Source of the DNA: Aridibaculum aurantiacum
Lineage (GTDB): Bacteria; Bacteroidota; Bacteroidia; Chitinophagales; Chitinophagaceae
Length of the DNA stretch: 64,000 nucleotides
Assembly: GCF_017355875.1 (NCBI RefSeq)
Contig: NZ_JAFEWC010000001.1
Span: 434,001-498,000, forward strand
Direction of reading: 5' to 3'
Below, piece by piece: positions 8,049 through 15,513 of the stretch; the stretch's first letter is position 1, and every line of letters starts with the position of its first letter. The notes below the pieces were generated by a model that saw nothing but the letters and a program-made list of their open reading frames with translations, had not been told where the DNA came from and searched no databases. Both the position numbers and the translations under genes were made by a program.

Positions 8049-9134
8049 ATGAATAGAATTTTTACTTTTTTCAGTTTTATACTTCTACTGTTTTCGGCAA
8101 CCGTACAAGCTCAGACGCATGGTGGCTTTCATGAGCATAAGCATATAAATATGGCTGCAGTACTTGCGGCTAAACCTTCTTCGCTAGCCATGGGCTTTTC
8201 TTCGGTCAGCGAAGCAAGGACCATCATTGGCGACATCATGGATGTGGTGGACCAGCAGCAGAATTTTGAAGTTGTTTCTACCTCGCAGGTTGATAATGCT
8301 GCTGCTATGTTCTACAACGGCAAACGTTATATACTGTATAACCCGCGCTTCATTAATAACCTGAACAATGCAGCAAATGATAGATGGGCTGCTATAAGTG
8401 TACTTGCTCACGAAATTGGGCACCACCTGCTGGGACACACGCTTGATGGCCGTGGCAGCCAGCATCCTAAAGAGTTAGCTTCAGATGAATTTTCAGGATT
8501 GGTATTGCGTAGAATGGGTGCAAGCTTGCAGCAGGCGCAACTGGCTATGGCACTCATCAGTTCACCACAGGGAAGTGCATCGCATCCGGGAAAGAACGAA
8601 AGGCTGAATGCTATTGCAAAAGGCTGGAATGGAACTCAGGTGCGTAAAAATGATCATAATGATGTGGCGATAGATTATCCTCCTGCAGGTGATAGAAGAA
8701 ATCAACCATCAACAAACACAGGTAGATATCCATCAGAAGATAGAAGAGGATATCCAACAGGTAGAGGTGGAACCATGGGTAATGAACGTAATTATCCTCA
8801 AAGAGGAGGTAGCGGCTATCCTACAACTGGTAACCAACGAGGCCAATATCCACAGCGTGGTGGTGTAGTTACATATCCGCAGCGACAAGCAACTCAAAGC
8901 CTTGTTTATCGCCTGCAGTTTAATGGAAATATGCGCCAGCAGTATTTTATCACCTCTCAAAATAATGTGGTGGTTTTACATGGCAACCGAATCCAAACAG
9001 TAGCTAAAATAGCGGGTACGAATAGCGTACAATACCCGTACATTATCTACGATGATCGGCTTCAGTTGCAGGTAGACAGGAGAGGAAATATTTATTCGAA
9101 TGGAAGGAGTGTGGGTGTGATAACAAGAGCTTAA
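8049..9134 (+). CDS. Secreted M48-like zinc metalloprotease domain protein
   Basis: 361 residues from the ATG at 8049 (an in-frame TTG lies 6 nt earlier). A signal peptide occupies residues 1-22, ending ATVQAQ. The peptidase core has HEIGH at 121-125 within SVLAHEIGHHLLGH, and the third zinc ligand region ELASDEF at 142-148, which is the E-x3-D pattern of M48 gluzincins. Residues 205-280 are a low-complexity linker rich in Arg, Gly, Tyr, Pro and Gln. The C-terminal 70 residues form strands (QYFITSQNNVVVLHG), possibly a small beta domain. It should act in the periplasm or at the surface; the substrate is unknown. A bidirectional terminator follows. Confidence 0.8.
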   Translation: MNRIFTFFSFILLLFSATVQAQTHGGFHEHKHINMAAVLAAKPSSLAMGFSSVSEARTIIGDIMDVVDQQQNFEVVSTSQVDNAAAMFYNGKRYILYNPRFINNLNNAANDRWAAISVLAHEIGHHLLGHTLDGRGSQHPKELASDEFSGLVLRRMGASLQQAQLAMALISSPQGSASHPGKNERLNAIAKGWNGTQVRKNDHNDVAIDYPPAGDRRNQPSTNTGRYPSEDRRGYPTGRGGTMGNERNYPQRGGSGYPTTGNQRGQYPQRGGVVTYPQRQATQSLVYRLQFNGNMRQQYFITSQNNVVVLHGNRIQTVAKIAGTNSVQYPYIIYDDRLQLQVDRRGNIYSNGRSVGVITRA

Positions 9135-9157
9135 AAACAATACAAGCCTATAACGTA

Positions 9158-9191
9158 ATAAAGCGGAGTGTTTAGCTCCGCTTTATTTTTT
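9158..9191 (+). terminator. Bidirectional intrinsic terminator
   Basis: ATAAAGCGGAG at 9158-9168 pairs with CTCCGCTTTAT at 9176-9186 around a 7-nt loop, then a T-run. It lies between the convergent metalloprotease and CBS genes and can serve both. Confidence 0.88.
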
Positions 9192-9222
9192 GCAATCAGA
9201 TGATTTCTTATAGCTGATCCAC

Positions 9223-9678
9223 TTATAAAATCTTGCTGCTGGCATCGTTGTTCAATAACGATGTGGTAAGTGTATCATCAAAGACCTGGTGCTTATTTGC
9301 CAGTACCTGCCTTAGCAGATCATGGATGGTGATGATGCCTAAGAAGTCTGCTTCATTATACACTGCAAGATAACGTGCGCCGCGAATGTTCATTTGGTAC
9401 ATGCATTCTTCTACTGTATTGTCTGGTGTTACTTCAGGCAGATCAACTGTCATTACATCCTGTACTGCGGTGTTCCTGCTGGAGCGATCCTGCAACACAA
9501 GCTTGCGCGTATAATCGCGTTCGCTAAAAAGACCTTTGAATTCTCCATTTTCCATTACTACCAGGTAACTCAGGTTTACATCTATCAATTTCCTCAATGC
9601 ATCAATTACCATGGTTGAAGGTTCTATCACATTGTCTTCTTTATCTTTTATATCCAGGATATTTTGTACAGTACGCAT
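9223..9678 (-). CDS. Two-CBS-domain protein
   Basis: 151 residues made almost wholly of a CBS pair (about residues 10-65 and 75-130; motifs VMENGEFKGLFSERDY and VYNEADFLGIITIHDLL). CBS pairs bind adenosine nucleotides or SAM and act as energy sensors. No effector domain is attached, so this is a stand-alone sensor of the kind common in Bacteroidota. Its partner cannot be told from the neighbours: the metalloprotease is convergent and the upstream 280 bp lacks other genes. Confidence 0.88.
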   Translation of the reverse strand: MRTVQNILDIKDKEDNVIEPSTMVIDALRKLIDVNLSYLVVMENGEFKGLFSERDYTRKLVLQDRSSRNTAVQDVMTVDLPEVTPDNTVEECMYQMNIRGARYLAVYNEADFLGIITIHDLLRQVLANKHQVFDDTLTTSLLNNDASSKIL

Positions 9679-9902
9679 TCAGTAGTTTTTTTAAAGTTAG
9701 CAGATAGATCACAAATATCGTTTGGCTAATTCTTTAGTTGTTTAAAAATCATTCCATTAGATGAAAATTTTTGCATGAAGGATGTTTAGGATACAGATGT
9801 TTATGAAAATAAAGTTATCATCCCAATCTGTTGAAACACGCGCTATCATTGAGTTTCAGCAGAAATAGCAACAATGTTTAAAAAATATAATTTGTCAAAA
9901 TT

Positions 9903-9934
9903 TTGTTAATGAGGAGCAGAAGCATGTATGTTTG
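9903..9934 (+). promoter_or_regulatory. Bacteroidota-type promoter
   Basis: TTG at 9903-9905 and TATGTTTG at 9927-9934 (a perfect TAnnTTTG), 21 nt apart. A start near 9941 would give a transcript of about 160 nt ending at the terminator at 10079-10106 and containing the 29-codon frame at 9959. Confidence 0.6.
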
Positions 9935-9958
9935 CATCATCAAAATAATTACGTAGAA

Positions 9959-10048
9959 ATGCAACGCTGGAATTTACATACCGAAACAATAAAAGGATTT
10001 AGTCCACTTATGGATTATATCTTTTTAGCGAGGCATTTTAAGAGTTAA
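9959..10048 (+). CDS. Possible 29-residue peptide in a short transcript
   Basis: ATG to TAA encodes MQRWNLHTETIKG, then FSPLMDYIFLARHFKS. It begins about 18 nt after the predicted transcription start and is followed 30 nt later by a strong terminator, so it is either a true small protein or the leader of a small RNA. No family is recognised. A GAGGAG-like purine stretch lies at 9911-9916, too far upstream for initiation. Confidence 0.35.
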   Translation: MQRWNLHTETIKGFSPLMDYIFLARHFKS

Positions 10049-10078
10049 GTACAACCAAAACTGACTGAATAAAATTTA

Positions 10079-10106
10079 CCTCGCTCAAAAAGCGAGGTTT
10101 TTTATT
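10079..10106 (+). terminator. Intrinsic terminator of the 9.9-kb small unit
   Basis: CCTCGCT, loop CAAAA, AGCGAGG, then TTTTTT. The 7-bp GC-rich stem with a clean T-run marks the end of the short transcript starting near 9941. Confidence 0.88.
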
Positions 10107-10151
10107 GCTATTAGCTAAGCAAATAAACAAGGAGAAAAAGGAATAGAACAT

Positions 10152-10307
10152 ATGACAGCAAACAAATCAATCACAAGCAACAACTGGTGCAGCATGATGC
10201 GTAAACAAGGCGGACAAAGCTTTGGCAGGAATAGGTATGCGCTGGAACTACGCAATAGTGAGTTTGATAATATACGACCGGGAGATATTCATTGGCGGGA
10301 GCAGTAA
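10152..10307 (+). CDS. Possible 51-residue small protein
   Basis: ATG at 10152 to TAA at 10307, preceded by purine-rich AAGGAGAAAAAGGAA. The peptide runs MTANKSITSNNWCSMMRKQ, a GGQSFGRNRYALELR core, and ends in the acidic/Trp segment GDIHWREQ. It sits alone between two terminators, in the position of an own transcription unit directly before the RNA-repair island. No family is recognised and there is no membrane segment or signal. It is below the usual length cut-off of gene callers, so it may be unannotated in relatives. Confidence 0.45.
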   Translation: MTANKSITSNNWCSMMRKQGGQSFGRNRYALELRNSEFDNIRPGDIHWREQ

Positions 10308-10325
10308 TGCTTCAGCATGAAGAGG

Positions 10326-10360
10326 AAAGCCCGGTCACCAGAAATGACCGGGCTTTTTGT
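10326..10360 (+). terminator. Intrinsic terminator before the RNA-repair island
   Basis: AAAGCCCGGTCA at 10326-10337 pairs perfectly with TGACCGGGCTTT at 10345-10356 around a CCAGAAA loop, followed by more T. It insulates the RNA island from upstream transcription, so the island needs its own promoter. Confidence 0.9.
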
Positions 10361-10372
10361 TTTAAAAACATA

Positions 10373-10449
10373 GAACGCAGATGATTGTGAGTATTGTGAT
10401 TAACACAGATTATCATAACCCATCATATCAATCATGATAATCTGCGTTC
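10373..10449. repeat. Inverted-repeat element, copy 1
   Basis: GAACGCAGAT at 10373-10382 and its exact complement ATCTGCGTTC at 10440-10449 enclose AT-rich sequence with GATTGTG/CAATCA-type inner pairing. Four similar elements lie at 12.41-12.88 kb. All five lie within 2.5 kb and only in the RNA-gene part of the window, apart from a related half unit at 1.14 kb. Confidence 0.75.
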
Positions 10450-10617
10450 CACTAAAAATAATCGTTGATGCACCCCATCAACACAAAAGCTTCCTTAACG
10501 GGAAGAAGGGTACAGGCAGTTGACTGCAAACCAGGCGAGGGTTTCGATATAGCCCCGCAGTGCAGCGATGATCATCAGTTGTATGCTGTTGCAACAATGT
10601 GCAGTGCCCTCCATGAC

Positions 10618-10679
10618 TGTGTCTGTCAGAGGTTCGACTCCTCTTCCCTAACGGGATAACTCAGTGGTAGAGTAACACA
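10618..10679 (+). ncRNA. Permuted tRNA-like module 1 (break in the anticodon loop)
   Basis: Read in genomic order: TGTGT (10618-10622), a 5-nt variable-like link, T arm AGAGG-TTCGACT-CCTCT (10628-10644), a 4-bp acceptor-like hairpin TCCC-TAAC-GGGA (10645-10656), TA as positions 8-9, D arm ACTC-AGTGGTA-GAGT (10659-10673) with the conserved GG, one A, and ACACA (10675-10679). ACACA is exactly complementary to TGTGT. The two would form the anticodon stem, so the 5' and 3' ends fall where the anticodon loop should be. The acceptor stem is closed and short, so aminoacylation is impossible. T and D arms keep the tRNA consensus. This resembles the tRNA-like domain of the bacterial Y RNA YrlA in topology. 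Confidence 0.62.
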
Positions 10680-10685
10680 ACAAAC

Positions 10686-10757
10686 GCAGGTTCGAATCCT
10701 GCCATGTACTTCGGTACATGTAGCATAGTGGCCAAATGCAAAGCACTCTTAATGCTT
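10686..10757 (+). ncRNA. Permuted tRNA-like module 2 (UUCG-capped acceptor, Lys CUU anticodon loop)
   Basis: All four arms pair perfectly, but in permuted order. T arm GCAGG-TTCGAAT-CCTGC (10686-10702); 7-bp acceptor stem CATGTAC/GTACATG closed by the tetraloop TTCG with a C-G closing pair (10703-10720); TA; D arm GCAT/ATGC with loop AGTGGCCAA (10723-10739); A; anticodon arm AAGCA-CTCTTAA-TGCTT (10741-10757). The loop has U33 and the anticodon CUU. The ends fall in the variable region. With a sealed acceptor it cannot be charged. The loop is identical to that of the genuine tRNA-Lys(CUU) at 12321, although the stem sequences differ. A non-permuted reading fails, because the flanking acceptor halves do not pair. 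Confidence 0.72.
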
Positions 10758-11035
10758 GAAACACGGAAGTATGCCGCTTCCCTAAAAATGGCAGCAAAGC
10801 AGGTACGCCTCACCGGCTGCTAATCACTACTGATCACCAGCAACCGGTAGCACGCCAGTAGACGGGTGTATACATCACCGGCTGACGCATCACTTGCACT
10901 TGCATGAAGGCTTGCAGCAGCAAGTACAATGCCTGTGCAACTGTTACGGGCAGCAGTGGTTGAGCCCCGCCTCCGCGAATGCCACCGGTGGTGAGCCGTA
11001 CAAGCTTTATTAGTAAACGAACAAAAACGACAGAT

Positions 11036-12133
11036 ATGAAGTGGATTAGAATCAACGCCTACCAGGTAGGACTGGTGTTTAGAAACGGCGTGTACGAGAA
11101 GATGCTTACCGAGGGTAAGTACTGGTTTTGGGGCGATGAGCGTGTAGAGATCTATGATCGTGCACTGCCTTTCATCCCAACCGTAGAGCTAAACATTTTG
11201 CTGCAGGACCCTGCATTGGCTGAACAGCTGATCGTAGTAGACGTAACCGAACAGCAAATTGTATTGCAATACGTGAATGGTTTGCTGAAGCAAGTGTTGA
11301 CTGCAGGTCGCTACGCATTCTGGAAGGGTGTGATCGATTACAGGTTTGTATATGCTGACATCAGCAAGATCGAGATCACCGAAGACATTGACCGTGCGAC
11401 TTTGCTGAGCAAGGTAGTAAGCCCGCATGTGCGTGCCTACACTGTAGAAAGCTACGAAAAGGCGGTGCTGTTTGTAGACGGAAAGTATGCGCAGCAACTG
11501 CCGAGCGGTATCTACCTGTGGTGGAGAAACAGTATCCCCATTACTGTAGGTAAGGTGGATACCCGCCAGCAGCAAGCCGAGATCAATGGACAGGAGATCC
11601 TGACCAGGGACAAGGCCGGCCTGCGTGTGAACGCCTTTGCTCAGTACGTGGTTACTGACATCGAAAAGGCTTTGTTGGAAAACAAGGAATACGATCGCCA
11701 GTTATACGTAGTGTTCCAGTTGGCATTGCGCGAATACATCGGCACCATGACTTTGGATGAGTTGCTTGAAAAGAAGGAAGCAATTGCGCCAGTCATCTTG
11801 CAGAACGTAGCAGCCAATGCCGCAGCACTGGGTGTGCAGGTCACCGGCTTTGGTATCAAGGATATCATACTGCCGGGCGAAGTGAAGGACATCATGAACC
11901 AGGTGTTGATCGCCGAAAAGAAGGCGCAAGCCAACACCATCATGCGTCGCGAAGAAACCGCCAGCACCCGCAGCTTGCTAAACACAGCCAAGCTGATGGA
12001 AGACAACCAGATGTTGTGGAAGCTGAAGGAGATGGAATACGTAGAGAAGATCGCTGAAAAGATCAATAGCATTAGTGTGAGTGGAAACGGTGTGCTGATC
12101 GACCAGCTACGACAGATCTTCAGTGGCAAGTAA
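11036..12133 (+). CDS. Soluble slipin-type SPFH protein
   Basis: 365 residues from the ATG at 11036 (MKWIRINAY); an open frame continues upstream into the RNA region but is not credible. The central part (about 165-290) is an SPFH/band-7 domain (DTRQQQAEINGQEILTRDK, then YVVTDIEKALL and LGVQVTGFGIKDIILPGEV). A helical tail rich in Glu/Lys follows. The N-terminal membrane hairpin of typical slipins is absent. Instead the motif 'V-x-F-x-N-G...L-x-x-G-x-Y-x-F-W' occurs three times, around Gly18-Trp32, Gly82-Trp96 and Gly149-Trp163. SPFH proteins form large oligomeric scaffolds. Slipins of this kind are known companions of RtcB in predicted RNA-repair operons. Ends 12 nt before a cluster of hairpins and tRNAs. 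Confidence 0.88.
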   Translation: MKWIRINAYQVGLVFRNGVYEKMLTEGKYWFWGDERVEIYDRALPFIPTVELNILLQDPALAEQLIVVDVTEQQIVLQYVNGLLKQVLTAGRYAFWKGVIDYRFVYADISKIEITEDIDRATLLSKVVSPHVRAYTVESYEKAVLFVDGKYAQQLPSGIYLWWRNSIPITVGKVDTRQQQAEINGQEILTRDKAGLRVNAFAQYVVTDIEKALLENKEYDRQLYVVFQLALREYIGTMTLDELLEKKEAIAPVILQNVAANAAALGVQVTGFGIKDIILPGEVKDIMNQVLIAEKKAQANTIMRREETASTRSLLNTAKLMEDNQMLWKLKEMEYVEKIAEKINSISVSGNGVLIDQLRQIFSGK

Positions 12134-12134
12134 C

Positions 12135-12207
12135 AGGTTGAGGTAAGGATCCGCCTCAACCTTTCTTCAAGCTTGCTACTGTGGTATGTTGTAATGATGT
12201 AGCAAGC
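12135..12207 (+). other. Two strong hairpins after slipin
   Basis: AGGTTGAGG (12135-12143) pairs with CCTCAACCT (12154-12162), followed by TTTCTT, a weak terminator. Then GCTTGCTAC (12171-12179) pairs with GTAGCAAGC (12199-12207) around a 19-nt U/G-rich loop. Partial termination after slipin with read-through into the tRNA and ykuK/rtcB part, or processing of a long transcript, are both possible. Confidence 0.6.
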
Positions 12208-12320
12208 ATTTATCCTCTCTTCAACTCCTGTTGCGTCGCACACTTGTACAGTTGGTGCGCTATTCATCTTCAGTTTCATATTCAGGTGCTGTTGCTCATT
12301 ATCAACAACAAAATAATTAT

Positions 12321-12393
12321 TGGCTCGTAGCTCAATTGGCAGAGTAGCCGGCTCTTAACCGGCGGGTTGTGCGTTCGATCCGCACCGGGCCAA
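12321..12393 (+). tRNA. tRNA-Lys (anticodon CUU)
   Basis: 73-nt cloverleaf. Acceptor TGGCTCG/CGGGCCA (one G-U pair), D arm GCTC/GAGT-type with AATTGGCA loop, anticodon arm GCCGG-CTCTTAA-CCGGC with U33 and A37, variable GGGTT, T arm GTGCG-TTCGATC-CGCAC, discriminator A. CCA is not encoded. The anticodon reads codon AAG. It sits between slipin and tRNA-Gln inside the RNA-repair island and has the same anticodon loop as permuted module 2. Confidence 0.93.
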
Positions 12394-12404
12394 CTGTTGG
12401 ATGA

Positions 12405-12592
12405 TAGAACGCAGATTTTTATGATGGTCATGATTTACGCAGATAAATAATGTTCTAGTCATACCCATCAGCATGATCATGATGATCAGCATTCTCAGTT
12501 CTAGAACGCAGATGATTATGATGGTCATGATTTACGAGATGAAAGTCACTGTTATCATAATTCATCATAACAATCATGATAATCAGCGTTCC
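12405..12592. repeat. Inverted-repeat elements, copies 2 and 3
   Basis: Copy 2 starts GAACGCAGATTTTTATGATG at 12407 and ends with the complementary ATGATGATCAGCATTC at 12493. Copy 3 starts GAACGCAGATGATTATGATG at 12504 and ends ATCATGATAATCAGCGTTC at 12592. Each can form a hairpin of 70-90 nt. They fill the whole space between tRNA-Lys and tRNA-Gln. Confidence 0.75.
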
Positions 12593-12605
12593 TTCTTCAA
12601 TACCC

Positions 12606-12678
12606 TGCCGGGTAGTGTAATTGGCTAACATATCACACTTTGACTGTGATGTTCCTGGTTCGAGCCCAGGCCCGGCAG
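12606..12678 (+). tRNA. tRNA-Gln (anticodon UUG)
   Basis: 73-nt cloverleaf. Acceptor TGCCGGG/CCCGGCA (7 perfect pairs), anticodon arm TCACA-CTTTGAC-TGTGA with anticodon UUG (codon CAA), T arm CCTGG-TTCGAGC-CCAGG, discriminator G. CCA is not encoded. The weak A-T rich D arm with TAATTGGC loop is typical of Gln tRNAs. Flanked on both sides by the inverted-repeat elements. Confidence 0.93.
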
Positions 12679-12688
12679 CTTGTACATA

Positions 12689-12875
12689 TAACGCAGATTT
12701 TTATGATGGTCATGGTATACGCAGATTAATAATGTATTGATCATAGTCTATCATCATAGTCATGATGATCAGCGTTCTCAATGTTAGAACGCAGATGATT
12801 ATGGTTGATCATGATGACCGCTGATAGCCCATAACATCTTAACCAATCATAATAATCATAAAAATCTGCGTTCCA
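12689..12875. repeat. Inverted-repeat elements, copies 4 and 5
   Basis: Copy 4 begins ACGCAGATTTTTATGATGG at 12690 and closes with CATGATGATCAGCGTTC at 12777. Copy 5 begins GAACGCAGATGATTATGG at 12787 and closes with AATCTGCGTTCC at 12874. Together with copies 1-3 they share the outer arms GAACGCAGAT and ATC(T/A)GCGTTC and an inner ATGATGGTCATGAT-like core. The last copy ends 19 nt before the ykuK start. Confidence 0.75.
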
Positions 12876-12893
12876 CTTAAAAATCAGAAGATC

Positions 12894-13376
12894 ATGAAAC
12901 AACAGCAATGGAGGAAGTTGAGTGGTCAGCGGATCACCATTCCCATCGAAGATGAAGTACGGCAAGTGCTCATGCGCGAACATGAGGCAGGCAATGCTAT
13001 GCGGGTGTTCATTGGTACCGATAGCCAGGTGAAAGGCCGGGTAATTGAGTTTGCCACTGTAATTGTTTTTCTGCGGAAGAACAAAGGCGGCTTCATGTAC
13101 ATCACCAACGAACAGGTGAAGCGCGGCATGCCCATCAAGCAGCGGATGCTGGAAGAAGTAGCACGGAGTATTGAAGTTGCATACAGCTTCTGCGACCTGT
13201 TTACTGCATTCAATGTTGCAATGGAAGTACACGTAGACATCAATACCAACCCAAACTTCAAGAGCAACGATGCTTTGAAAGAAGCCATGGGTTATATTAT
13301 GGGGATGGGGTTTGCATTCAAAGCCAAGCCACATGCCTTTGCAAGCTCAAGCTGTGCGAATAAGGTGGTGCAGTAG
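12894..13376 (+). CDS. YkuK-type RNase H-fold protein (DUF458)
   Basis: 160 residues. The block MRVFIGTDSQVKGRVIEFAT (about 36-55) is the hallmark of the YkuK/DUF458 family, predicted to have an RNase H-like fold with the Asp of GTDSQ as a metal ligand. A second acidic strand, MEVHVDINTNPNFKSN (about 110-125), supplies further candidates. Enzymatic activity has not been shown for the family as far as I know. In this window it lies between tRNA-Gln and RtcB, 41 nt before the small membrane protein gene, which suggests a nuclease or RNA-binding part in the repair system. The start follows the last inverted repeat and has no strong Shine-Dalgarno. Confidence 0.85.
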   Translation: MKQQQWRKLSGQRITIPIEDEVRQVLMREHEAGNAMRVFIGTDSQVKGRVIEFATVIVFLRKNKGGFMYITNEQVKRGMPIKQRMLEEVARSIEVAYSFCDLFTAFNVAMEVHVDINTNPNFKSNDALKEAMGYIMGMGFAFKAKPHAFASSSCANKVVQ

Positions 13377-13417: not shown

Positions 13418-13933
13418 ATGATGTGGTTATTTATAGCAATGGTTTACGTAATCGTAAGACTGGTGGCCTGGATCATCGGGCAGGTAGATAGGACCGGCTG
13501 GAGATTAACTAAAAGAAAAATAAAGGCTGTTGCAGGTTTATTTGTCAACAACTATGTTGATGGCAAAATGCTGTTCGTAAGCAAGTTTGGTGAAGTAGCA
13601 AGCCTGGGTGTTATCACTCAAATTGATGCTACTGCAGCTTATGCTTTATTAAAAGACAAGCTGGGTGCAGATATCGTTGATGTACACCAGGTGAATATGT
13701 ACGACTACGATGAAGCAAAAAATTACTTCACCATTACCATACTTGAATTAACTGCAAAGCGGATGATCGAAATAGGTAATGGCTATGTAGAAGTACTGTA
13801 CACCAGCAAGCATTACGACTGGGCGATGCAATTACTAGATGAACTGGCTGTTTGCAAAGCAGAAGTACAGGTAGTGGAAGAAGAGAAGGCTCCTACTATC
13901 ATCGGTTTTGCAAGAGCAATGGAGATGAATTAG
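13418..13933 (+). CDS. Unknown protein with N-terminal membrane helix, RNA-repair island
   Basis: 171 residues; I do not recognise a family. Residues 1-22 (MMWLFIAMVYVIVRLVAWII) form one hydrophobic helix, followed by a basic stretch (GWRLTKRKIK) that would lie in the cytoplasm. The remainder is a mixed alpha/beta domain with VSKFGEVASLGVIT, a YALLKDKLG helix, YDYDEAKNYFTITILELT and a final helix pair; residues 150-165 are Glu/Lys-rich. Its position between ykuK and rtcB on the same strand suggests it belongs to the repair island, perhaps tethering it to the membrane since the slipin here lacks its own anchor. That is inference. Confidence 0.75.
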   Translation: MMWLFIAMVYVIVRLVAWIIGQVDRTGWRLTKRKIKAVAGLFVNNYVDGKMLFVSKFGEVASLGVITQIDATAAYALLKDKLGADIVDVHQVNMYDYDEAKNYFTITILELTAKRMIEIGNGYVEVLYTSKHYDWAMQLLDELAVCKAEVQVVEEEKAPTIIGFARAMEMN

Positions 13934-14052: not shown

Positions 14053-15513
14053 ATGGGAAAACTAAAACTAAGAGGAAAACAACTGCGGGATATTGGTTAT
14101 CCTGAAGCGCCTGTCATCAGCATTGCTATGCAGGTAATGGAGAAGCATTATAAAAGAAACGGAACGCATCATGTGCTTGGAATACTTGAGAAAATTTTTC
14201 AAGACCCAGAAGCCTACAAAGAAGATGAAGTGCTTGGTAAAATCGCGAATGAGCTGTTAGAAATGAGAGCAAAAGAAGAAGCAAAGGCAGCATCAGCTGT
14301 AGATCTTTCTTCAGAAGGAGTGCCTTACAACATTTTCGGTGCAGAGTTCATTGAAGAAGGTGCATTATCACAAATGAATAGTGCTGCGCGGCTTCCTATA
14401 TCTGTTGCGGGTGCATTGATGCCCGATGCACATCACGGATATGGACTACCGATTGGAGGTGTGCTGGCAACGCAAAATGCAGTCATTCCGTATGGAGTTG
14501 GTGTTGATATTGGCTGCAGGATGTGCCTGAGCATTTTTGATATCGATCCAAAGGAACTGGAGTTTCGGGCTGATTACTTCACTCGTGAACTGAACGAAGC
14601 AACCTTGTTTGGAAGCGGAAGAGAGTTCAAGAAAAGGAGCGATCATGATGTACTGTACAGGCCTGAATTCCACGAGATTGGAATCTTGCGGCAACTAAAG
14701 GATAAAGCTGCTTCGCAATTAGGCTCAAGTGGTGGAGGAAACCACTTTGTTGAGTTTGGGATTGTTGAAATACCCGAAGCAGATGCGGTGCTGGGTGTGC
14801 CTGCTGGCAAATACCTCGGACTGCTGTCGCACAGCGGTTCAAGAGCTATAGGGGCCAATGTAGCCAATCACTATACAAAGCTTGCAAAAGAGAAGCGCAA
14901 GCTGCCGCCTGATGCTGCTAATCTTGCATGGTTTACACTGGATGAAGAAGAAGGAATTGAATACTTCATGGCAATGAACCTTGCGGGTGATTATGCCAGT
15001 GCGTGTCACCACGTGATACATGAAAAGATTGCAAAGCAACTGGGACATGAGCCGATGAAGATGGTAGAGAACCACCACAACTTTGCATGGAAGGAATTAT
15101 ATGAAGGCAAGGAGGTGATCGTCCATAGGAAAGGTGCAACACCTGCAGGTAAAGATGTTCTGGGCATCATACCGGGTAGTATGACAGCGCCGGGATTTAT
15201 AGTAAAAGGTAAAGGTGAAACAGCTTCCATCAATTCTGCATCGCACGGTGCAGGCAGGTTGATGAGCCGTACATCAGCAATGAACAATATCACTGCTAAA
15301 ATGCTAAAGGAAGAACTAGCGAAGCAGGGAGTAAAGCTCATCGGCGGCGGACTGGATGAAGCGCCTTTTGCTTATAAAGACATTCACCAGGTGATGAATG
15401 CACAGAAGCAATTGGTAGATACTGTTGGTACGTTTACACCAAAGATTGTAAAGATGGATGATACACCACCCCGCAACAGGAAGAAGCTGGACAGGTTCGA
15501 TGCTGGAGAGTAG
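14053..15513 (+). CDS. rtcB: RtcB-family RNA ligase
   Basis: GTP-dependent ligase joining 2',3'-cyclic phosphate or 3'-phosphate RNA ends to 5'-OH ends, as in repair of cleaved tRNA. 486 residues, longer than the E. coli enzyme because of an N-terminal extension of about 90 residues. Key residues are present: Asp152 and Cys155 in GVDIGCRMC, Asn230-His231 in SSGGGNHFVEF, His260 in LLSHSGSR, His341/342 in VENHHNF, and the guanylylated His398 in SASHGAGRLMSR. It belongs to the branch with GVDIGCRM. Last gene of the island with tRNA mimics, slipin, tRNA-Lys, tRNA-Gln and ykuK. No RtcA, archease, Rsr or RtcR gene is visible. A terminator follows. Confidence 0.95.
   Translation: MGKLKLRGKQLRDIGYPEAPVISIAMQVMEKHYKRNGTHHVLGILEKIFQDPEAYKEDEVLGKIANELLEMRAKEEAKAASAVDLSSEGVPYNIFGAEFIEEGALSQMNSAARLPISVAGALMPDAHHGYGLPIGGVLATQNAVIPYGVGVDIGCRMCLSIFDIDPKELEFRADYFTRELNEATLFGSGREFKKRSDHDVLYRPEFHEIGILRQLKDKAASQLGSSGGGNHFVEFGIVEIPEADAVLGVPAGKYLGLLSHSGSRAIGANVANHYTKLAKEKRKLPPDAANLAWFTLDEEEGIEYFMAMNLAGDYASACHHVIHEKIAKQLGHEPMKMVENHHNFAWKELYEGKEVIVHRKGATPAGKDVLGIIPGSMTAPGFIVKGKGETASINSASHGAGRLMSRTSAMNNITAKMLKEELAKQGVKLIGGGLDEAPFAYKDIHQVMNAQKQLVDTVGTFTPKIVKMDDTPPRNRKKLDRFDAGE

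Follow-up and report, generated by a model that had tools for sequence, protein, structure and literature searches.

Our comparisons show that a permuted tRNA mimic with a sealed acceptor stem, found upstream of a slipin gene in Aridibaculum aurantiacum, is a real structure, and that it is the second of two tandem mimics inside a larger element. The window that we analysed, i.e. the whole stretch of DNA, covers 64,000 nt (GCF_017355875.1, NZ_JAFEWC010000001.1, 434,001-498,000 of the forward strand), and all positions are counted from its first letter. Judged by its conservation, the element extends over about 10490-11010 (~520 nt) upstream of slipin and near rtcB (Table 1). Our tentative explanation, which we put at a little less than an even chance, is that this conserved RNA serves as a non-chargeable anticodon bait or sensor for enzymes attacking anticodon loops. 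The sequence-only reading of this DNA had described mimic 2 as a lone non-chargeable mimic. Its sealed and permuted form is borne out but it does not stand alone, and mimic 1, a 5' domain, a pseudoknot adjoining on the 3' side and a 3' domain all lie beyond the module first described.

Table 1. Features of the element and of the genes downstream of it, in window positions.
Feature	Position	Strand	Basis
Leader hairpin GTTGATG-CACCC-CATCAAC, just 5' of the element	10464-10482	+	sequence
Hairpin CTTCCT-TAAC-GGGAAG opening the conserved 5' domain	10490-10505	+	alignment
5' domain, sequence strongly conserved	10507-10610	+	RNAalifold, n=28
5' domain, closing helix	10507-10513 with 10604-10610	+	RNAalifold
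5' domain, inner parts: GAGGG..AGCCCC hairpin and GCAGTGCAGC..TGTATGCTG arm		+	RNAalifold
tRNA mimic 1	10618-10679	+	covariation, Rfam YrlA 29.6 bits (gathering 69)
Mimic 1, outer anticodon-stem-like helix TGTGT/ACACA	10618-10622 / 10675-10679	+	covariation
Mimic 1, variable-loop-like CTGTC	10623-10627	+	comparison
Mimic 1, T arm	10628-10644	+	covariation
Mimic 1, sealed acceptor	10645-10656	+	covariation
Mimic 1, D arm	10659-10673	+	covariation
Linker between mimics; last base C10685 stands in for position 48 of mimic 2	10680-10685	+	15-48 covariation
tRNA mimic 2 (module first described): T arm, UUCG-sealed acceptor, D arm, anticodon arm	10686-10757	+	sequence, covariation, model R2
Mimic 2, T arm GCAGG-TTCGAAT-CCTGC	10686-10702	+	sequence
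Mimic 2, closed 7-bp acceptor hairpin CATGTAC-TTCG-GTACATG	10703-10720	+	sequence
Mimic 2, T-A (U8-A9)	10721-10722	+	sequence
Mimic 2, D arm GCAT-AGTGGCCAA-ATGC	10723-10739	+	sequence
Mimic 2, anticodon arm AAGCA-CTCTTAA-TGCTT; U33, triplet CUU (Lys)	10741-10757	+	sequence
H-type pseudoknot GGAAG-TA-TGCCG-CTTCC-CTAAAAA-TGGCA	10765-10793	+	parse and pair counts
3' domain closed by long-range helix (about 10796-10822 with 10982-11010), then TTTATT before slipin	10796-11010	+	duplex energy, helix score
Slipin / SPFH protein (Band_7)	11036-12133	+	Pfam PF01145, 108.5 bits; start placed by alignment
tRNA-Lys(CTT), the sole one among 35 genome tRNAs; loop CTCTTAA equals the mimic 2 loop	12321-12394	+	ARAGORN
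tRNA-Gln(TTG), one of two among the 35	12606-12679	+	ARAGORN
RNase H-like protein (PF04308)	12894-13376	+	Pfam
RtcB-family RNA ligase	14053-15513	+	Pfam PF01139, 274.5 bits

The four perfectly paired arms claimed for mimic 2, in the order T arm, acceptor, D arm and anticodon arm, are all present, as are the claimed U8-A9, D loop, T loop and U33. The claimed UUCG seal is present too, but it is particular to this genome and not conserved across 39 copies, in which the sealing loop has 3-10 nt in mimic 1 and 3-11 nt in mimic 2. Since the acceptor loops have only 3-11 nt, no CCA end is left and charging is impossible. The element thus lacks the open acceptor with a CCA end that a functional tRNA has, while the D- and T-loop bases, U8, the 15-48 pair, U33 and R37 of functional tRNAs are all found. 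The alignment column taken as position 18 of mimic 2 is mixed (G in 23, T in 15 and C in 1 of the 39 copies). The minimum-energy fold of 10686-10757 alone retains the T arm and the acceptor hairpin without the D and anticodon arms, and that of 10600-10780 has both T arms, both acceptor hairpins and the anticodon arm without the D arms; the D arms therefore rest on comparison. We rejected ordinary tRNA genes as an explanation, because ARAGORN calls no tRNA at the module or elsewhere in the element and the acceptors are sealed.

The structure is kept among relatives by compensating changes. We aligned with MAFFT 39 of the 63 loci having two tandem T arms (alignment A2). In these relatives, picked by a parse score that favours paired sequences, 96.1% of 1499 cells are base-paired versus 70.3% in shuffles, and 36 of the 40 base pairs show change on both sides with pairing kept. 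The covariation score of 0.689 drops to at most 0.151 when the partners are slid, and RNAalifold, run unguided, predicts these helices as well, with compensatory change in 31 of 35 pairs. Covariation extends to the tertiary 15-48 pair, in mimic 2 (CG 17, TA 19, others 3, n=39) with 36 observed against at most 30 in permutations; mimic 1 has 36/39 against at most 35, and in both cases the permutations ignore relatedness. Neither mimic varies at U8, A14 or the T-loop bases, except for G or A at position 57 in mimic 1.

A model (R2) with automatic structure, built from 31 of the 39 A2 relatives with the window sequence excluded (L001, L050, L052, L059, L079, L080, L085 and L106 were omitted from training), finds 10619-10757 in the window with 126.5 bits and E 1.5e-32, and in the whole genome with E 1.2e-30, both E-values being rough owing to a short calibration. 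The next match in the genome has 30.1 bits and lies within a tRNA gene cluster. Another model, R1, matches close upstream of slipin with at least 61 bits in 69 of 90 loci, 39 of these being training sequences. The best R1 match there has 23-60 bits in 18 loci, and three have none (L097, L102 and L100, which has only 226 nt upstream). Homologous structure, which the sequence-only reading expected upstream of slipin/rtcB in relatives, is hence found there, and its stems vary by compensation.

Mimic 1 came to light through a weak Rfam YrlA match at 10620-10679, upstream of the module first described. It corresponds to a tRNA opened at the anticodon, which is the order of YrlA, and has no anticodon loop; in mimic 2 the opening is in the variable loop, and the anticodon hairpin is intact. 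The variable-loop-like stretch of mimic 1, CTGTC in the window, reads GGGTC or GTGTC in many relatives. In 91 regions of up to 800 nt upstream of slipin, a module finder detected one or more units of T arm, hairpin and D arm in 87 and at least two in 66, some of the counted units being real tRNAs; among mononucleotide shuffles 12 of 455 had any unit, and among reverse complements 2 of 91. Two consecutive tandem-mimic matches at L154:1501-1807 and L185:1850-2156 suggest a doubled mimic pair.

The anticodon of mimic 2 varies among the copies. We ran R1 on 87 sources, mostly loci known to match, and obtained 87 distinct matches, which include L055:9007-9172 inside a tRNA array and two from L154. 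A 5/7/5 anticodon hairpin is found in 76 of the 87, with U33 in 64 of the 76; given the 12 hairpins without U33 and the 11 matches without such a hairpin, a clean anticodon is not in every copy. The 64 U33 hairpins carry 23 triplets and 33 loop sequences, and 10 of these loops have an exact counterpart in this genome's 35 tRNAs, e.g. CTGTCAC, CTTAGGA, CTGTTAA and TTCCTAA. Position 37 follows position 36 in these 64 loops, as G36 goes with G37 in 23 of 24, T36 with A37 in 19 of 20, A36 with A37 in 13 of 15 and C36 with A37 in 5 of 5, a pattern also seen in 33 of the 35 tRNAs of this genome. Across three divergence bins of 12 close pairs (<20% divergence), which are not independent and are uncorrected for phylogeny, the triplet differs at 22%, 56% and 56% of positions and the loop flanks at 0, 8 and 25%. 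Two anticodon arms were seen by eye in L095, L098, L101, L111 and L123. The two Gln tRNAs of this genome have the loops CTTTGAC and TTTTGGT, the former belonging to the tRNA-Gln(TTG) of Table 1, or the reverse.

The mimics are embedded between other conserved structures. In alignment A5, which holds 28 of 51 prepared references, RNAalifold gives compensatory changes in 26 of the 37 pairs of the 5' domain. The pseudoknot follows directly after the anticodon arm of mimic 2. A pseudoknot parse succeeded for 43 of 44 loci, a few of them at displaced positions (L011, L066, L107, L123), and for 151 of 880 shuffles. Its alignment covers 38 of the 44 loci (L011, L107, L114, L117, L118 and L123 were omitted), and in the 37 distinct rows 88.1% of cells are paired versus 78.4% when shuffled, with two-sided change in 7 of 10 pairs.

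Several other features were noticed around the element. A palindrome-like repeat, AACGCAGAT..ATGATGGTCATGAT..ATCTGCGTT, was seen by eye around the element and between the tRNA genes, at about 10375-10452, 12402-12473, 12493-12590, 12684-12775 and 12787-12870. The region of about 9902-10106 may be an attenuator: it has a promoter-like TTTG..TATGTTTG, a short open reading frame starting at about 9959 and, near 10078-10106, a terminator-like hairpin with a weak tryptophan-leader match. A weak match of this kind occurs upstream in L003 too. At 10152-10364, in the gap preceding the element, a terminator-like hairpin comes after an open frame of 51 residues.

The element keeps its place next to slipin in many genomes. 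Full-length slipin loci were taken from 11 of 59 genomes searched, and the 80 best of 508 slipin relatives from named contigs make up the loci L044-L123, of which L044, a duplicate of L002, was dropped. Among the 69 good-match loci, 66 have enough sequence downstream, and rtcB lies within 3.7 kb in 46 of them and was not found within this distance in 20. Of the 58 loci with 5 kb of upstream sequence, 28 have at least three tRNA genes upstream, 30 an RNase H-like gene and 19 a WYL regulator. A divergent WYL-domain regulator is located upstream of the element in many loci (L036-L040, L043 and others); it adjoins Ro60 in L043 and is a candidate shared regulator. PADLOC recognises no defence protein among the four operon proteins given to it. 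A 171-residue protein at 13418-13933 has no Pfam, NCBIfam or PADLOC match and has weak relatives in several slipin loci.

We searched 195 genomes of the family and 395 of the phylum, four being in both, with R1 at E 1e-14 or better, and found matches in 31 and 23 of them, respectively. Tandem real tRNAs also score with R1 (59.4 bits at L011:3362-3520, 73.9 at L055:9007-9172 and up to 90.1 in G581), and we therefore checked the genome matches for neighbouring slipin and tRNA genes. The match lies directly upstream of slipin in 30 of the 31 family genomes and 16 of the 23 phylum genomes (46 of 54 in total). The remaining eight, one from the family and seven from the phylum, are ordinary tandem tRNA arrays without adjoining slipin and were removed. 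Phages and plasmids gave no match to the element, nor did viral contigs searched with one exact 5'-domain pattern, and we accordingly rejected a spread on mobile elements.

The element could instead be a derivative of a Y RNA, namely a YrlA-type RNA that, having lost Ro60, would now serve RNA quality control as the scaffold of a different partner (slipin, RtcB, PNPase or tRNA-modifying enzymes), the mimics being docking modules and not bait. We consider this somewhat unlikely. The sequence-only reading had linked the module to YrlA, and the link holds for mimic 1, which has the sealed T arm, acceptor hairpin and D arm within an anticodon-like stem and is the better match to Rfam RF02553 (29.6 versus 23.7 bits for mimic 2, both below the gathering score of 69), but not for mimic 2, in which the anticodon hairpin is intact and the order of the arms differs from YrlA. 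Weak YrlA matches occur in 10 of 11 slipin-upstream regions, and five loci (L079, L094, L109, L113 and L121) have a Ro60 (TROVE) gene upstream of slipin. The basal stem of YrlA is reported to bind Rsr, and TruB and DusA to modify YrlA (PMC8394870). Against this explanation, the intact and species-variable anticodon of mimic 2 is left unexplained, and the Y RNAs of the Ro60 loci are separate units. Those of L043, L079, L094, L109, L113 and L121, missed by the Rfam YrlA gathering score, have the lower-stem motif GATGCCGTA..GGGTTACTTCG in common. They are located upstream of Ro60 in L109; in L079, L094, L113 and L121 their place is between Ro60 and the element. This motif, which was taken from L079 after reading that locus, is found in 6 of 7 TROVE loci, in 0 of 74 slipin loci without TROVE and not in the window.

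Ro60 and the element also occur together at about the level of chance. The genome of the window has no match to Ro60 (TROVE, PF05731), and Ro60 is present in 4 of the 69 good-match loci. After removal of the false matches, 2 of the 30 family carriers have both (16 of 195 genomes with TROVE; 2.5 expected) and so does 1 of the 16 phylum carriers (27 of 395 with TROVE; 1.1 expected). G015, with TROVE and a 61.5-bit copy below the cut, would be a third such family carrier. In the window at 9000-13000 only two real tRNAs pass the gathering scores of Rfam 15, with no family on the element. The YrlA gathering score is unreached in all seven Bacteroidota loci with Ro60 as well, so that the failed Rfam test is weak by itself. 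Pieces of the element in L002, L004, L008, L011 and L079 pass the gathering score of 29 of the tRNA model, at 30-37 bits. As the genome has no Ro60, the lower-stem motif is absent and the YrlA score falls well short of the gathering score, we judge that the element is not a classical Y RNA.

It is unlikely, in our estimate, that the element is a leader acting in cis on slipin (and rtcB) within the mRNA to which it belongs, either through attenuation at its 3' helix and T-rich end or because its tRNA-like fold stimulates translation. Its fixed place directly upstream of slipin fits such a role, as does the long-range helix, whose end lies 25-99 nt 5' of the slipin start in 44 loci and often precedes a T-rich stretch. 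This helix has a duplex energy of -27.3 kcal/mol in the window and a mean score of 11.3 versus 7.7 shuffled in the 44 loci, the ungapped score of the window being only 9.6 versus 8.2. Yet a long untranslated RNA would account at least equally well for the two mimics, the 5' domain and the boxA-like signal of some loci, and a variable anticodon is unexplained unless it is the part being sensed. BoxA is a mark of long untranslated RNAs; the boxA-like GTTCTTTAAAA, a pattern chosen by eye, precedes the element in 11 of 54 loci, where 0.22 would be expected, and none is obvious by eye in the window. The Bacteroidota-type promoter consensus TTTG..TAnnTTTG occurs within 1200 nt upstream in only 1 of 50 loci, and in the window once, at 9902, far upstream of the element. 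Leaders with a tRNA-like fold, e.g. the yjdF riboswitch, are described as able to raise translation (PMC9142559). The Y-RNA-like scaffold, the cis-acting leader and the bait or sensor may hold simultaneously.

We regard as very improbable that the element is a permuted tRNA gene whose precursor is processed into working tRNAs with the ends joined by RtcB. Permuted tRNA genes occur in algae and archaea, and the T-acceptor-D-anticodon order and the nearby RtcB ligase recall them, but the sealing loops of 3-11 nt in the 39 copies leave no room for a 3' CCA, leader and trailer, and mimic 1 has no anticodon loop. Decayed tRNA genes in chance order, which the tRNA genes upstream in many loci might suggest, have a negligible probability, being refuted by the compensatory covariation and the out-of-sample recovery.

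A bait or sensor would suit the data better than a plain docking module, because the element is non-chargeable, keeps the tRNA elbow, carries changing tRNA-like anticodons and has an RNA ligase and tRNA genes nearby. We picture the ~520-nt structured RNA as being transcribed either separately or as the leader of the slipin mRNA, with mimic 2 predicted to fold in three dimensions so that it shows the anticodon hairpin of one particular tRNA, the choice of tRNA changing between species. Anticodon nucleases might then bind and cut the bait, which would spare the real tRNAs, and/or the cut would open the adjoining pseudoknot and the 3' domain and thereby alter slipin and rtcB expression. The bait could be reset by RtcB, which would rejoin the cut ends. 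Going further, we speculate that there may be a class of resettable-bait RNAs in which one mimic holds the tRNA elbow while the other offers anticodon nucleases an exchangeable anticodon loop, a cut both spares the tRNA and switches the slipin-RtcB operon, RtcB reseals, and species swap the anticodon as their attackers change; we think it doubtful that all of this holds together. As we read PMC7790460 and PMC8394870, the natural targets of repair by bacterial RtcB and the role of the tRNA mimics in Y RNAs are open questions. The present element separates a tRNA mimic from Ro60 and its anticodon can be read from sequence, which gives for each species a directly testable prediction of the attacked tRNA.

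We found no description of this element in the open PMC literature, and subscription papers may hold an earlier mention. The trn operon and TrcR regulon of Anabaena resembles it in gene content, as the loss of TrcR is reported to raise a tRNA array, rtcB and a slipin gene, and the repression by TrcR to be relieved under translational stress (PMC10272220). That system is cyanobacterial, its gene numbers indicate separate loci, and the term 'tRNA-like' appears 0 times in the text of PMC10272220. The yjdF riboswitch is likewise a tRNA-like fold upstream of a gene with no free 3' end, but it is drawn as one cloverleaf unit that binds azaaromatic compounds (PMC9142559), whereas the present element is larger and linked to slipin/rtcB. 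The rsr-yrlBA-rtcBA operon of Salmonella similarly encodes a tRNA-like RNA with RtcB, there under the control of RtcR and with Ro60 (Rsr) (PMC7790460), while the loci studied here have slipin, often the RNase H-like protein, tRNA genes, a WYL regulator in some and Ro60 in few. For YrlA itself, Hughes 2020 considers, among other options, competitive inhibition of an anticodon nuclease by the tRNA-like domain, a precedent for the bait. Fragments of YrlA were not found in that study, so that in Salmonella the mimic is not a substrate, which counts against the bait; YrlA has no anticodon loop (PMC7790460). Mimic 1 resembles YrlA (RF02553) in its T arm, sealed acceptor hairpin, D arm and closing helix like an anticodon stem, in the conserved T- and D-loop bases and in the RNA-repair surroundings (rtcB). 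The element differs from YrlA by being without Ro60 in this genome and without the lower-stem motif of the Ro60 loci, by its tandem mimics, the second opened in the variable loop and having a full anticodon hairpin, and by its extra 5' domain, pseudoknot and 3' domain.
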